64,000 nt of DNA from Desulfobacula toluolica Tol2 (GTDB lineage Bacteria; Desulfobacterota; Desulfobacteria; Desulfobacterales; Desulfobacteraceae), in NCBI RefSeq assembly GCF_000307105.1, contig NC_018645.1, positions 4,102,001 through 4,166,000 of the forward strand. Reading direction: 5' to 3'. Shown piece by piece: positions 59,356 through 63,968 of this stretch. The notes beneath the pieces were generated by a model. It was not told where the DNA came from and did no database searches. It saw only the letters and a program-made list of their open reading frames with translations. Numbering within the stretch: the first letter of the stretch is position 1; each line of letters opens with the position of its first letter. A program made the translations under genes and the position numbers.

Positions 59356-59619
59356 TTATTTGGAATTCATAGAATATACAAAGGCAAGAAGCTCTGCAAC
59401 TGCAACATAGATTTCAGAAGGAATTTCTTCATCAATTTCAAGGGATGACAGCACCTCAATAAGGTCGGGATCATCTTTTACGGGAATATCATGTTGTCTG
59501 GCAAGGTCAATAATTTTCTGTGCCACCTTGCCTTTACCTTTGGCTGTAACTTTAGGCGCACTGTTGGTTGCACGATCATATTTTAAAGCAATCGCTTTTT
59601 TAGGGTAGTTTTTATCCAT
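59356..59619 (-). CDS. FlhB C-terminal-domain homologue (FlhX/YlqH-like)
   Basis: 87 residues. It matches the cytoplasmic end of FlhB: KKAIALKYDRATNSAPKVTAKGKGKVAQKI, then ARQHDIPVKDDPDLIEVLSSLEIDEEIPSEIYVAVAELLAFVY, cited in family pieces (the A-x-x-x-x-I-P-(V/I)-x-x-x-P-x-L and L-x-x-x-(E/D)-(V/I)-x-x-E-x-(Y/F) patterns). The autocleavage N-P-T-H loop and all membrane helices are missing, so it corresponds to the part left after cleavage. Stand-alone forms can partly replace the FlhB C-terminus in export switching. It follows the FliK-like gene by 6 bases, the same pairing as Bacillus ylqG-ylqH. Confidence 0.88.
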   Translation of the reverse strand: MDKNYPKKAIALKYDRATNSAPKVTAKGKGKVAQKIIDLARQHDIPVKDDPDLIEVLSSLEIDEEIPSEIYVAVAELLAFVYSMNSK

Positions 59620-59625
59620 TAAAAT

Positions 59626-60687
59626 TCAAATTACAATATTTAAAACCTTATTATCACGGGCTTTTATCAAAGTTTCAATTAAACTGCTGTGCTGGATATC
59701 TTTTTTTTCAGCAGTGATGCAGGTTATCTGATGAACCTGGTAATCAATGCTGGCAAGACGGGTTTTCAGCTCTGGAATCATTGACTCAACATATTTACAT
59801 GTGTCTTCATCCTTGAGCAGAAACCGACCGGTCATTTTTTTTTTCAGTATTGAAAAATCAGCTCTCAATGGTCCCAACCGGCTCATGTCCAACAAAAAAG
59901 AGAGCTGAATAAGCTTATCCGCATCCTTGTTATCTTTTTTGGTTTTATCTCCCGTATCAATCAAAAGCTGTCCAAAGCTGAATGCCGATTCGCTGAAAAT
60001 CGGAAACGGCAACAAAAATCGACCGGAATCTGAACTGTGGTGATTGAGTACTTGAAAATTTTCCAGGGTTTCAGAAAAAGCGGCTGCTGTTTTCAAAGCT
60101 TCAAATCTCCCGGGATCAGCACCTGACAGCTCTTTGAGAATATTTCCCTTTATATCCTGCTTTAACAGCATATCCAATTTATCTTTTATGCCTGGTGACA
60201 AGTCATTGCCAAGAAGTAGCTGGGCCACTTTTTTTTCCCATAACATACCACTTTTCTCTATTAATTTTGGCAAAAATGTCTTATCAGGCTCATCTGATTT
60301 TAATGCCATATCATATAACAGCTCTTTTACATTTTTTATTTTGATATCTGCTGGATCAGGTATGGATTCGTTGTTCGAAAAAAAACCGACAAGGGAAGAT
60401 ATCTGCCGGGTTGTCATTTTTTGAACCGGGCCAATAAGCTTTAAGATAATATCATCTTTTTGTGAAAGGACTTTCAATTGAACTTGCTCTCCGGGCTTCA
60501 TCAGCAGTGCTGTTTTTGCAACAACTTTTTGACCGTTTATCAAAAGCTGCGCATTCCCCCGAGGTAACAATTTTAATACTTTTGCGCTGATCATCTGATT
60601 TTTTTTTAAATCGGGAAGTGTGTGTTTTTTATCATCCTCATTATGGATAACCATCTGAGAAGATGAAACATGAATACAGGTGATCAT
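59626..60687 (-). CDS. FliK-like protein (hook-length-control C-terminal domain type)
   Basis: 353 residues. The N-terminal 80 residues are a beta-rich domain (LPRGNAQLLINGQKVVAKTALLMKPGEQVQLKVL). The C-terminal 110 resemble the FliK C-terminal core: FLLDMSRLGPLRADFSILKKKMTGRFLL, then ELKTRLASIDYQVHQITC. The usual L-x-P-x-x-L-G-x-(V/L) signature is present as M-S-R-L-G-P-L-R. Being paired with the FlhB-C-terminal homologue downstream supports a substrate-switching role. It is unlikely to be the main hook ruler, which is normally Pro/Gln-rich and encoded near flgD/flgE (not in this window). Confidence 0.7.
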   Translation of the reverse strand: MITCIHVSSSQMVIHNEDDKKHTLPDLKKNQMISAKVLKLLPRGNAQLLINGQKVVAKTALLMKPGEQVQLKVLSQKDDIILKLIGPVQKMTTRQISSLVGFFSNNESIPDPADIKIKNVKELLYDMALKSDEPDKTFLPKLIEKSGMLWEKKVAQLLLGNDLSPGIKDKLDMLLKQDIKGNILKELSGADPGRFEALKTAAAFSETLENFQVLNHHSSDSGRFLLPFPIFSESAFSFGQLLIDTGDKTKKDNKDADKLIQLSFLLDMSRLGPLRADFSILKKKMTGRFLLKDEDTCKYVESMIPELKTRLASIDYQVHQITCITAEKKDIQHSSLIETLIKARDNKVLNIVI

Positions 60688-61268
60688 CTACTGTTCTTTT
60701 CCATTTCAATAAATTTTTTTTTAAGTTCAATCACCAGTTGAACTTCCCCTTTGGGAATGGATAGCTGCTGGGCAATGCTGTCGATATCAAATTGTTGATT
60801 ATACATTTCGATAATACGATGCTGATGATCAATCGTTGCGTTTGAAGAGGTATTGAAATTTATGGTGTTGGGCAACGGACTTGATGGCTTGAATGCGGGA
60901 ATATTTTTTTCCATTTTTTTTTGCAATGCATCTGCCCTGGATAAAGAACGGTTAATACTGATTACCCTTGCATCCAATGCATTGTTCAACTCTTTTACCA
61001 ATCGCTTTTTTTCTTTTATCTGCTGATCAAAACTGATGGCGGCTTTTCTGGATTCTTCGACCAAAGGTTCCAGCATTTCAATAATATCCGCAGCAGATCC
61101 AAAAGCAATTTTTGCACCTTCTTGCCCGTCATCTTGGTGGCTGGTATCTGGTCCTGCCAAATTCAATCTATTGATCTTTTTTACAAAAACAAATAAAAAA
61201 ATCGCTAAAAAAAAATTAACAAAAAAAAGAATCGTGATCCAAAATTCAATTGAGAATAATTCCATCAT
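60684..61268 (-). CDS. Membrane-anchored coiled-coil protein with HTH-like C-terminus (DUF2802/DUF6115-like)
   Basis: 194 residues. One membrane helix at about 8-29 (FWITILFFVNFFLAIFLFVFV), then a linker, a coiled coil at about 65-120 (EESRKAAISFDQQIKEKKRLV), a Pro-rich linker, and a C-terminal helix-turn-helix-like unit near 155-185 (IIEMYNQQFDIDSIAQQL, PKGEVQLVIELKKKF). This layout is found in many flagellar operons downstream of fliA, under DUF2802-type names; the role is unknown. It overlaps both neighbours by 4 bases (ATGA). Confidence 0.7.
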   Translation of the reverse strand: MMELFSIEFWITILFFVNFFLAIFLFVFVKKINRLNLAGPDTSHQDDGQEGAKIAFGSAADIIEMLEPLVEESRKAAISFDQQIKEKKRLVKELNNALDARVISINRSLSRADALQKKMEKNIPAFKPSSPLPNTINFNTSSNATIDHQHRIIEMYNQQFDIDSIAQQLSIPKGEVQLVIELKKKFIEMEKNSR

Positions 61269-61567
61269 ACAGTTGTATCCAGTAACCGTCCTGTTGCGTC
61301 AGGGTCGTGATCCATTTCCAATTGTCTTTTTTTCTTTTTAGCTTGTTTTAACTTCTGTTTTTTTTTCAAGGCATCTTTCTCTTTTTTGGCCTTTAGTTTT
61401 TCAGACGCATCAAATTCCTGTACTGTTGTATTTTTCAACCTTATATTGGTTGCCTGCTGAGCAGCAGCCTGCTCCGGGGAAGGTTTGTGCGTGTGGGCCT
61501 GATTTGCCAGTTCCTGAGCACTCCCGGATTGTTGAATAACAAGATTATGCCCGGGTACGGTTGTCAT
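61265..61567 (-). CDS. Small charged protein of unknown function in the fliA operon
   Basis: 100 residues. The N-terminal 45 are Gln/Ala-rich (SAQELANQAHTHKPSPEQAAAQQA), and residues about 50-85 are an extremely Lys-rich helix with the run KKKQKLKQAKKKKRQLE. There is no membrane segment. Similar small proteins sit between the fliA-linked genes of deltaproteobacteria, but I cannot name a function. Overlap with the next gene by 4 bases shows that it is translated in the operon. Confidence 0.65.
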   Translation of the reverse strand: MTTVPGHNLVIQQSGSAQELANQAHTHKPSPEQAAAQQATNIRLKNTTVQEFDASEKLKAKKEKDALKKKQKLKQAKKKKRQLEMDHDPDATGRLLDTTV

Positions 61568-61582
61568 TTCAACCCCCTTTTT

Positions 61583-63208
61583 CTAACTTGCCGTAAAAGA
61601 TTTAAAGCTGACCCGGTCTATATACGGTCCGGGCAATGCTTTTTTTAAAGCGGTTTCAACGATCCATAAAATATCTGTTTCTGTGATTCCTTCTCTTTTT
61701 TCGGAAACAAGACTTTGGTTCAGTGAATCATAAATTAAATCCCGGTAAAAAGATAAATTATTCTGAATTTCAAAATAAGCGCTTTGATCAGAATAATCAA
61801 TAGAAATATCCACCGTGATATAAGTCATATCTTTTGACAGATCAGAGGCCAGTATGACAAAATCATTTAAAATTATATTTCCGGATTTTTTAATATTATC
61901 CTGCTTTTCAATATGAATATCCACTGTTTCAACTTCAATCTCTCTTTGTGTTTCAATGGCAACTTCTCCAACATTTTTAGGATGAGACGATTCACCGGTT
62001 TCTCCTGAAAAAAAGAAAAAATAAGTCAAAGGAACAGCAATTCCCAGAACAACCAATACAGAGGCACAGGCAACGGCAAATTTTGATTTGTACCACTTGG
62101 ATCTTGCTTTTTTATTTGATTTTTCAGTATGATCTTCTTCTTCCAGAACAACCTGACCCTCATCTTCTTTATCTGTATTGTCAGGCTCAGACAATTCGTC
62201 TTCACCAACTTCATCTTCACCAACCGGATCTTCTAGGCTGCTGCCAAAATCATTGTCCATTAAATCACCAAGGACATCTTCATCTTCCTGGTCTGCAACC
62301 ATTAAGAGCGTATCAATATCATCCTGGGATATGAGGATATCCTCATAATCCTCTTCTCCTTCTTCTCCTTCTTCTCCTTCTTCATCTTCAAGCAGGAACG
62401 CATCAATATCATCCTGAAAATCATTTTCATCTTCCTGCACACCCTCATCGTCAAAATCAAAGGCTGAGACATCTGAATCAGGCGTTAAAAAATCCTCTAT
62501 ATCATCCAGCTCCGAGGCTTTTTCCTCATTTAATTCATCCGGCTCAGGCTGTGACCCGGGATCAGATGCAAATTGTGTTTGGTCAACTGGTTCCGGTTGG
62601 GAATCCAAGAACGGGTCTTCGTCCAAAACGACAGGTTCAGAGGGTACATCAGTATCAAAATTTCGCATCAGATCATCAATTGTTTCCTGGACAATCAAGC
62701 AGTTCCTGGCATCTACTGCTTCAGATTCATCAATTACACCATCATCCCGGCTGATATCTTCCGTAGACCCTCCACCCATAAGCGTGTTAATATCATCCTG
62801 TGAGATCAGTTCGACATCTTCATCCGAAGCGTCATTTGAATCCATCAAATCATTAATATCATCCTGGGAAATGAGTTCTATATCATCATCTTCAACATCA
62901 TCTTCATCTATTGGATCTTCAGAATCTGATACACTTGAATTCATTAGCTGATCAATATCATCCTGGGAAATAAGTTCCATCTCATCATCTTCGACATCAT
63001 CTTCATCAATGGAATTTTCAGAAACCGATACACTTGAATTCATAAGAGCGTCAATATCATCCTGAGAAAGCTCACCAAATTCATCATCTCCATCAGCAAC
63101 ATTGTTGGAAAGGATTTCTTCCGCTTCTTCAATGGAAGATGAATCTAAAAGTTTGTCAATATCATCCTGGGATATTAAACCGTCTTCTTCTAAGCCTGGA
63201 TCAGACAT
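61583..63208 (-). CDS. FliL-like membrane protein with an N-terminal array of FliM-type (CheY-binding-like) motifs
   Basis: 541 residues. Residues 1-365 are very acidic and contain repeated L-I-S-Q-D-D-I-D-x-L-(L/M): clear copies at 11-21, 47-56, 79-89, 112-122, 134-144 and 292-302, and weaker ones at 171-181 and 264-272. This motif closely resembles the FliM N-terminal peptide (LSQ-x-EIDALL) that binds phosphorylated CheY. Copies 2 and 3 are parts of a nearly exact 33-residue repeat. A basic stretch is followed by one membrane helix at about 376-400. Residues about 440-541 resemble FliL (LNDFVILASDL, TYITVDISIDY, then IVETALKKALPGPYIDRVSFKSF). AGAGGT precedes the ATG. It follows fliA by 13 bases. 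Confidence 0.75.
   Translation of the reverse strand: MSDPGLEEDGLISQDDIDKLLDSSSIEEAEEILSNNVADGDDEFGELSQDDIDALMNSSVSVSENSIDEDDVEDDEMELISQDDIDQLMNSSVSDSEDPIDEDDVEDDDIELISQDDINDLMDSNDASDEDVELISQDDINTLMGGGSTEDISRDDGVIDESEAVDARNCLIVQETIDDLMRNFDTDVPSEPVVLDEDPFLDSQPEPVDQTQFASDPGSQPEPDELNEEKASELDDIEDFLTPDSDVSAFDFDDEGVQEDENDFQDDIDAFLLEDEEGEEGEEGEEDYEDILISQDDIDTLLMVADQEDEDVLGDLMDNDFGSSLEDPVGEDEVGEDELSEPDNTDKEDEGQVVLEEEDHTEKSNKKARSKWYKSKFAVACASVLVVLGIAVPLTYFFFFSGETGESSHPKNVGEVAIETQREIEVETVDIHIEKQDNIKKSGNIILNDFVILASDLSKDMTYITVDISIDYSDQSAYFEIQNNLSFYRDLIYDSLNQSLVSEKREGITETDILWIVETALKKALPGPYIDRVSFKSFTAS
62352..62387. repeat. 9-base tandem repeat (CTTCTTCTC type) in the FliL-like gene
   Basis: Three to four head-to-tail copies encode Gly-Glu-Glu repeats (residues about 278-286). 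The unit is a multiple of three, so changes in copy number would keep the frame. Confidence 0.85.
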
Positions 63209-63221
63209 TTAATGACCTCTT

Positions 63222-63968
63222 TTAATGAAAATAATCTTGAAGCCCGGCTTTCAACTTCGTCAGAATCGCCGTATGAATCTGGCAGATGCGCGACTCAGTC
63301 AATGAGAGAACTTCACCGATTTCTTTTAACGTTAATTCGTCATAGTAATATAGTGACACCACCATTTGTTCTTTTTGAGTTAATGTTTTAATAGAGTCAG
63401 CCAGAACAGATTTGAGTTCTTTTTTGTCAAAAAGATCGACCGGGGTTTCATCGCTTTTAATATTGGACTGGAAGCTTGTTTTTGAATAAGCTTCGTTTTT
63501 CTTTGTTTTAATGAAATCATCCAGGCTCAGCACGGATCCCCTGTGAATATGGGTGAGCATATCATAGTATGCTTCAAGAGTAACACCCAGTGCCCGGCAA
63601 ATTTCTTCATCCGTTGCCGGTGATCCCTTACGGTCTTCAATGGTTTTAACAGCCCGGGTAATATCCTGAATTTTTTTTCTCATGGATCTTGAATAGGTAT
63701 CCTTGCGTCTGAGTTCATCAAGAATCGCTCCCTTTATCCGGTACTGAGCATAGGTTTTTAAGCTGACATGTTTTGAGGAATCAAATTTATCCACAGCATC
63801 AATCAAACCAAGAGATCCTGCAGAAACCAATTCATCAAAAAAAACACTGGAAGGAAGGCGCATGGAAAATCTTGCAGCAATATGTTTAACAAGATATGAA
63901 TACTCAATAATACTTTTTTCACGCCATTGGGCTTTATCTGCTTTATTTTCCTGATACCGAAATCTCAT
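63222..63968 (-). CDS. fliA: RNA polymerase sigma factor FliA (sigma28)
   Basis: 248 residues. Region 2 reads EYSYLVKHIAARFSMRLPSSVFFDELVSAGSLGLIDAVDKFD, the FliA/WhiG signature (cited as family regions), then FKTYAQYRIKGAILDELRR-type region 2.4 (here LKTYAQYRIKGAILDELR). Region 3 contains TDEEICRALGV, and region 4 ends in LTLKEIGEVLSLTESRICQIHTAIL, the -35-binding helix-turn-helix. It directs late flagellar transcription; matching promoters precede fliC and fliD in this window. The ATG at 63968 has only a distant GGGGGA upstream. Confidence 0.95.
   Translation of the reverse strand: MRFRYQENKADKAQWREKSIIEYSYLVKHIAARFSMRLPSSVFFDELVSAGSLGLIDAVDKFDSSKHVSLKTYAQYRIKGAILDELRRKDTYSRSMRKKIQDITRAVKTIEDRKGSPATDEEICRALGVTLEAYYDMLTHIHRGSVLSLDDFIKTKKNEAYSKTSFQSNIKSDETPVDLFDKKELKSVLADSIKTLTQKEQMVVSLYYYDELTLKEIGEVLSLTESRICQIHTAILTKLKAGLQDYFH

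Follow-up and report, generated by a model that had tools for sequence, protein, structure and literature searches.

A FliL-like membrane protein with an array of FliM-type motifs in Desulfobacula toluolica Tol2: a candidate docking tail for activated CheY

Why should a membrane protein encoded among flagellar genes carry six to eight copies of a motif that FliM carries once? The last step of chemotaxis is, in textbook terms, the arrival of phosphorylated CheY (CheY-P) at FliM, with one docking site per FliM. The question is raised by a gene of the sulfate-reducing bacterium Desulfobacula toluolica Tol2 (NC_018645.1) that lies within a stretch of 64,000 nucleotides, positions 4,102,001-4,166,000, which was analysed as a whole and is here called the window. 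An original prediction had described the product as a FliL-like membrane protein with a multivalent tether for CheY-P. The sequence observation is confirmed by the analysis below, and the tether interpretation is partly supported by it. On balance we lean towards the view that this FliL paralogue docks activated CheY through a multivalent tail and would in this way concentrate CheY-P at the motor.

The gene, here called the array gene, has the following parts, given in window coordinates with residue numbers in brackets; pN/pS is the ratio of non-synonymous to synonymous change among relatives.

61583..63208, minus strand: whole gene, one open frame of 541 amino acids with an ATG start, encoding a motif-array tail, a transmembrane helix and a FliL-like periplasmic domain
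63146..63175, minus strand: motif copy 1, ISQDDIDKLL (12-21); AlphaFold helix 14-22; pN/pS 0.13
63041..63070, minus strand: motif copy 2, LSQDDIDALM (47-56); AlphaFold helix 49-57; pN/pS 0.18
62942..62971, minus strand: motif copy 3, ISQDDIDQLM (80-89); AlphaFold helix 82-90; pN/pS 0.18
62843..62872, minus strand: motif copy 4, ISQDDINDLM (113-122); AlphaFold helix 115-123; pN/pS 0.23
62777..62806, minus strand: motif copy 5, ISQDDINTLM (135-144), the least constrained of the eight; AlphaFold helix 137-145; pN/pS 0.49
62666..62695, minus strand: degenerate copy 6, IVQETIDDLM (172-181), from the alignment; AlphaFold helix 174-184; pN/pS 0.37
62393..62422, minus strand: degenerate copy DFQDDIDAFL (263-272), from the alignment; AlphaFold helix 266-272; pN/pS 0.15
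62303..62332, minus strand: motif copy 8, ISQDDIDTLL (293-302), the most constrained; AlphaFold helix 295-307; pN/pS 0.08
62141..62158, minus strand: conserved box GQVVLE (351-356) before the membrane helix; V353 and L355 invariant in 28 rows, box seen in most of the divergent members
62009..62080, minus strand: transmembrane helix (377-400), from sequence; AlphaFold helix 370-401; preceded by KKARSKWYKSK
61586..61891, minus strand: FliL-like (SPFH-type) periplasmic domain (440-541); FliL matches 7sgn, 6ahp, 6ahq and 9hmf, and hhalign match to canonical FliL

The original prediction had counted six clear and about two weaker motif copies, and both the count and the coordinates were right. Six exact copies of [IL]SQDDI[DN]xL[LM] have their first residues at 12, 47, 80, 113, 135 and 293, and two further copies are degenerate. 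The consensus of 28 relatives reads ITQETxDxLI at the 172-181 copy and VTQEDIDALL at the 263-272 copy, so both look like decayed members of the same motif series. The strict motif appeared in none of 20,000 shuffles of the protein, and the loose motif was never found more than once. All eight copies lie in a region of about 370 residues before the membrane helix, the N-terminal two thirds of the protein, which we call the tail. Its acidic and cytoplasmic character had been proposed and is borne out, since residues 1-360 hold 142 aspartates and glutamates against 6 lysines and arginines (net charge -136) and the region is cytoplasmic by charge. The one membrane helix proposed is recovered in the AlphaFold model, and its basic N-terminal flank KKARSKWYKSK indicates, by the positive-inside rule, that the N-terminus is inside. 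The model, run for the full-length protein on a 28-row alignment, has a short helix at all eight copies, with block means of the predicted local distance difference test (pLDDT) of only 49-73 at the six exact ones. The tail of about 370 residues is probably mostly disordered, and low model confidence there is as expected for disorder. A QVVLE or VILE box on the N-terminal side of the membrane helix is kept by most array proteins, and a similar string occurs in some motif-less relatives.

The proposed kinship of the C-terminal domain with FliL is supported by structure and by profile comparison. Residues 441-540 are modelled well (eight of ten blocks at pLDDT 84-90, two at 68-69), and a Foldseek search of the PDB places FliL chains at ranks 1-9 (7sgn, 9hmf, 6ahq, 6ahp; best E 2.2e-4, target TM-score 0.77), with stomatin SPFH domains ranking after them. 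VIA-align likewise puts FliL on top, with 7sgn_A from H. pylori at Z 11.2 (root mean square deviation 2.6 over 96 residues) and 6ahp at Z 11.1, the best non-FliL match reaching Z 9.2. When 30 family members were compared by hhalign with 24 canonical FliLs drawn from the same clade, the probability was 97.8%, with E 8.5e-13 and an identity of 8%. A wider array-family profile picks up FliL-size open reading frames (ORFs) next to fliM, with E-values of 2.9e-13 and 5.9e-13. In the family databases the window protein has no match to Pfam FliL (PF03748) up to E 1, and so falls below the gathering cut-off, while 8 of the 30 members match it weakly (best E 6.7e-4); the NCBIfam FliL model reaches only E 0.018. 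Pfam and NCBIfam alone thus give the domain no name, and the weak Pfam FliL match may be the reason why annotation overlooks the protein. A sequence search of the PDB is also weak, and its sole two matches are both FliL (7sgn, E 0.07; 9hmf, E 0.61).

A canonical FliL is encoded in the same genome, beside fliM. Taken with the fold and the profile homology, this makes the product of the array gene a second, diverged FliL-type protein. It resembles FliL (PF03748; 7SGN, 6AHP, 6AHQ, 9HMF) in its single membrane helix, its periplasmic SPFH-type domain of about 100 residues and its place in a flagellar gene cluster. It differs in its cytoplasmic N-terminus, which measures about 370 residues and carries the motif array, whereas a part of PMC10127578 gives 2-28 residues for the FliLs of eight compared species.

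The second half of the argument is the likeness of the motif to the N-terminus of FliM, which had been proposed and is borne out within the same genome, where the FliM N-terminus reads MSEILSQDEVDSLLDG and carries one copy, LSQDEVDSLL. The same ten letters are present in all 31 FliMs read, of the 61 genomes of the family with FliM. Searched with a degenerate DNA version of the motif that accepts T as well as S, the 5.2-Mb genome gives 12 matches, and with the reversed pattern it gives none; six of the 12 lie in the array gene, one in FliM, four at transposase N-termini and one in an ORF that is aminotransferase-like by eye. The form with S-Q is confined, by the pattern used, to the array gene (six) and FliM (one). 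The transposase and aminotransferase-like look-alikes mean that a single copy proves nothing. The four transposases of this genome (L046, L047, L048 and L049; IS66-type by eye) begin LTQEE[IV]DALL. The idea that the motif is a common coincidence was also considered. Over the phylum the strict pattern has at least one match in 119 of 395 genomes and three or more in only three (G000 with six, two of them transposases, G271 with five and G217 with four), all of which have FliM and an array protein.

The motif copies thus share with the FliM N-terminus (the 'EIDALL' motif; complex 1F4V) the ten-residue pattern, a tentatively predicted helix and a position on the cytoplasmic side. In FliM, a rotor protein, the motif stands once, at the very N-terminus, whereas in the array protein it recurs six to eight times at internal positions of a membrane-anchored chain, presumably on the stator side. 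A further likeness is to the FliY and FliN proteins with an N-terminal EIDAL (Bacillus, Thermotoga, Campylobacter), which are also second carriers of the motif; these are C-ring components with SpoA/CheC domains and a single motif copy and, unlike the array protein, are without membrane helix or FliL domain.

Selection was gauged on alignment columns of 28 relatives whose rows were not picked by motif. The eight ten-residue motif stretches have a pN/pS of 0.22 (pS 0.66) and the 229 other tail columns one of 0.52 (pS 0.71), with the membrane helix at 0.42 and the FliL domain at 0.35, so that constraint on six of the eight copies (0.08 to 0.23) exceeds that on the FliL domain. When copies were compared with one another within 66 array genes (443 copies), the six core codons had a pN/pS of 0.12, a value biased low as the copies were picked by a motif pattern that also required an invariant Q, and the ten-codon flanks had 0.78 and 0.83. 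The contrast in the column-based test is smaller than in this within-gene test, and clear. Array genes hold a median of 7 copies (range 1-15 in the 66 genes, up to 17 by a looser pattern) at a median spacing of 36 residues. Constrained copies, free flanks and such spacing would be the look of a repeated binding site on free linkers. An unrelated C-terminal domain together with copies not conserved in relatives, which the original prediction had named as counting against it, was thus not what was found.

What could such sites bind? According to PMC9126983, the N-terminal segment of FliM docks into a groove that helices alpha4/alpha5 form in CheY-P; it is described there as a first site of high affinity, through which more CheY-P gathers near the FliM core. 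FliY is reported as a binder of both CheY-P and FlhG (in parts of PMC9126983 and PMC12327844). The CheY of this genome (contig positions 4194406-4194744) matches the E. coli and Vibrio proteins at E 1e-42 to 1e-41 and keeps the segments TAEA, YVVKPFTA and KL. We take these segments to be the alpha4-beta5-alpha5 side of CheY. CheY binding by the FliM N-terminus, the match of this CheY and the short tails of canonical FliLs together make a FliL-anchored, CheY-P-collecting tail the best reading. The FliL fold and membrane helix would place the array protein in the inner membrane. To judge by homology, it would most likely sit next to the stator or basal body, as canonical FliL does. Its acidic, disordered tail would display six to eight short amphipathic helices of FliM-type sequence, each of which could make weak, reversible contact with the alpha4-beta5-alpha5 groove of CheY-P. 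Jointly, the copies might raise (or buffer) the local CheY-P next to the C-ring, and the tail might hand CheY-P on to FliM/FliN.

Relatives of the array gene were recovered with an alignment as query, in a number that is a lower bound; a query of the genome contigs with the raw protein returned no relative, its search patterns falling in low-complexity stretches. Within the Desulfobacteraceae, a homologue occurs in 61 of 86 genomes and FliM also in 61 of 86, with 55 genomes having both, six the array homologue only, six FliM only and 19 neither (Fisher p 3e-9, with kinship ignored). The six array-only genomes are drafts of at least 330 contigs. Across the order, 127 of 389 genomes gave a match to a profile built from the C-terminal part, canonical FliLs included. 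Forty loci outside the family were chosen by hand from these matches, so that shares among them are not a rate: 21 carry at least two motifs, two carry one (in one case cut by a contig end) and 17 carry none. Array genes with at least two copies are found in 16 GTDB families, the Desulfobacteraceae and 15 more of the order, and carriers include Desulfospira joergensenii, Desulfobacter vibrioformis, Desulfamplus magnetovallimortis and Desulfoluna butyratoxydans. In the homologue survey envisaged in the original prediction, copies are conserved in the 28 relatives and absent from 17 of the 40 hand-chosen loci.

These 17 comprise some canonical-FliL-like proteins, a fragment, and also long acidic proteins with other repeats. 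Repeats of another kind (EISEITGxELDE; FSGNELDE) stand at the array position in the FliL-domain relatives L217:1103-1930, L210:308-1165, L273:1250-2053 and L272:2-772. One genome (G710) has two loose copies, ISQKELDDLI, amid repeats of the other kind, and L272 combines such a repeat with ISQKELDDLI, so that these repeats may be decayed arrays. Loss of the FliM motif where the FliL relative is without an array was also checked and does not happen. Among 14 genomes whose fetched FliL-domain protein is motif-less, FliM was not found in one (G722), and all 13 FliMs found keep their motif. The array is therefore dispensable in some lineages, an elaboration and not a necessity, and the FliM motif does not covary with it.

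The surroundings of the array gene are flagellar. Taken from its upstream end, the cluster runs flhA, flhF, flhG, fliA, array gene, a 100-amino-acid ORF, DUF6115, a fliK-like gene, an FlhB C-terminal domain, flgF and flgG. The nearest neighbours are as follows.

63222..63968, minus strand: gene for a FliA-type sigma factor, directly upstream; Sigma-70 regions 2, 3 and 4; conserved neighbour
61265..61567, minus strand: Lys/Ala-rich protein of 100 amino acids, adjoining the array gene on its downstream side and retained there in many relatives
60684..61268, minus strand: DUF6115 membrane/coiled-coil protein; Pfam PF19610, E 8.1e-9; conserved neighbour
59626..60687, minus strand: FliK-like hook-length control protein; Pfam Flg_hook, E 8.7e-7, just under the cut-off; conserved neighbour
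59356..59619, minus strand: protein of 87 amino acids that is the FlhB C-terminal domain only, beside FliK; Pfam Bac_export_2 positions 262-335 of 335, E 1.4e-21

The names flhA, flhB, fliP, fliR, fliN, the SRP-type GTPase flhF, the sigma factor and the flgF/G type are backed by Pfam, and the others were given by eye; FlhG of this genome matches FleN structures. A full-length FlhB is encoded at another site of the cluster. Canonical CheY and FliM are encoded in the same gene run as the array gene: cheY heads this minus-strand run and is followed by flgB, flgC, fliF, fliG, fliH and fliI (names by eye). The 100-amino-acid downstream protein is without a family, and being basic it is possibly an interactor of the acidic array protein.

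The order flhF-flhG-fliA-array gene-small ORF-DUF6115-fliK is common to orthologous loci in the Desulfobacteraceae. Among 53 loci from named organisms, 48 have the array gene, four have other architectures and one (L098) ends inside the gene. FliA is the nearest upstream match in 44 of the 48; three of the other four start at a contig end, and L064 is without a FliA match. The 100-amino-acid ORF and/or DUF6115 lies within 2.5 kb downstream in each of the 43 loci whose contig extends more than 132 bases further.

Motif arrays, some with D or G for S, are also found on unrelated proteins: on Big_9 proteins (L106, L109), on a TPR protein of Candidatus Hydrogenedentota (L096), on two proteins of Verrucomicrobia (L100, L102) and on two without a clear domain (L107, L108). 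The genomes with such non-FliL arrays have FliM in seven of seven cases; across the phylum of the window FliM occurs in 240 of 395 genomes, and by that measure the flagellar link is suggestive only. For L107 and L108, no flagellar gene was seen among the five neighbouring ORFs scanned. One of the Verrucomicrobia proteins (L100:8663-11671) has 1003 amino acids and many near-identical FliM-type motifs, and lies between MptE-like and receiver-HD genes. The proteins at L267 and L270 combine LDQxxIDxLL-type arrays with a hydrophobic segment and Big_9, beside FlgO genes.

How firmly, then, can the array be read as a docking tail for CheY-P? Several results weigh against that reading. A ten-residue match is a lead only, as transposases bear near-identical letters with T for S, and two core positions of the array copies are unlike those of the cognate FliM (D-I in most cases, where FliM has E-V). 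For copies 5 (pN/pS 0.49) and 6 (0.37), constraint does not exceed that on the FliL domain. The full-length model is of low confidence (mean pLDDT 55.5, predicted template modelling score 0.26), and both the motif-less FliL-domain proteins at 17 of the 40 hand-chosen loci and the retention of the FliM motif in their company belong here. To these must be added FlhG, a second candidate ligand which the original prediction had missed. FlhG is a MinD-like ATPase of flagellar number control, and the array could bind it in place of, or before, CheY-P, gathering it at the nascent basal body, so that C-ring assembly and flagellar number would both be coupled to a FliL-like marker in the membrane. Passages of PMC12826062 report that FlhG interacts with FliM through the FliM N-terminus, and passages of PMC12327844 that Geobacillus FlhG interacts with the first 36 residues of FliY, although what these passages describe is not recognition of exactly the SQDDIDxLL helix. 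Two FlhG positions named in part of PMC12327844, K177 and F215, are kept here under an inferred numbering offset of eight residues; the third, printed both as R207 and as 277, is Ser here if 207 and the inferred offset are right. The flhG gene lies two genes upstream, in the conserved order of the array loci, but flhG adjoining fliA is common in array-less flagellar operons, which makes adjacency weak evidence, and multivalency would make better sense with a ligand that is abundant and exchanges fast, as CheY-P does. Sequence does not discriminate between these ligands, and we consider FlhG unlikely, though by no means negligible.

The motif evidence for CheY-P docking would serve a sponge equally well. 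As a competitor, the array would keep CheY-P from FliM and act as a motor-side sink, lowering clockwise bias or speeding signal termination. A part of PMC10127578 reports that the N-terminal region of canonical FliL, with its membrane helix, acts negatively on motor output, but it does so without an influence on switching and for tails of 2-28 residues. Since a tether beside the C-ring would favour delivery over sequestration and a Pfam scan finds no CheZ/CheC-like catalytic domain in the array protein, such a sink seems improbable. The copies might instead be generic capped amphipathic helices, with S-Q-D-D as cap and I-D-x-L-L as face, made for some other partner such as a receiver domain, an export component or each other. 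There are at least 150 receiver domains in the genome (150 of 192 candidates scored), and the same or near motifs are arrayed on unrelated proteins (Big_9, TPR or no known domain), two of them with no flagellar gene among the five neighbouring ORFs scanned; against this stand the FliM found in all seven genomes checked and the two Big_9 array types that adjoin FlgO genes, and we hold this explanation to be distinctly improbable. Drift of a low-complexity acidic segment, tandem-duplicated and without a binding role, could account for copy numbers of 1 to 17, for near-identical tandem copies in some genes (L025) and for one relative with relics only. It is disfavoured by the difference in pN/pS between motif stretches and other tail columns at similar pS, and has very little to recommend it.

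CheY-P docking thus remains the reading that we prefer. Its conditional parts are the binding of CheY-P, the position at the motor and the sense in which the tail would act (gathering and relay, or sponge). Among the matches listed for an open-access literature search, in which subscription papers are mostly outside, no description of such a protein was seen by title or start of abstract. It is conceivable, although we would not go so far as to call it probable, that chemotaxis output in numerous families of a single order includes this protein as an unrecognised part: a polymer-like tail, derived from FliL and anchored in the membrane, whose many FliM-type sites would multiply CheY-P capacity per motor and so set gain, response time or stator behaviour. 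More widely, FliM-type arrays would be a recurring module that arose on unrelated proteins in several flagellated phyla. If FlhG should be the ligand, the protein would be a new anchor in the control of flagellar number. If the CheY-P reading is true, several-fold more docking sites per chain would change the stoichiometry of the input to the switch, and the protein could form a connection between the stator side and chemotaxis signalling. The natural series of copy numbers, from 1 to 17, bears on how the number of docking sites sets motor gain.

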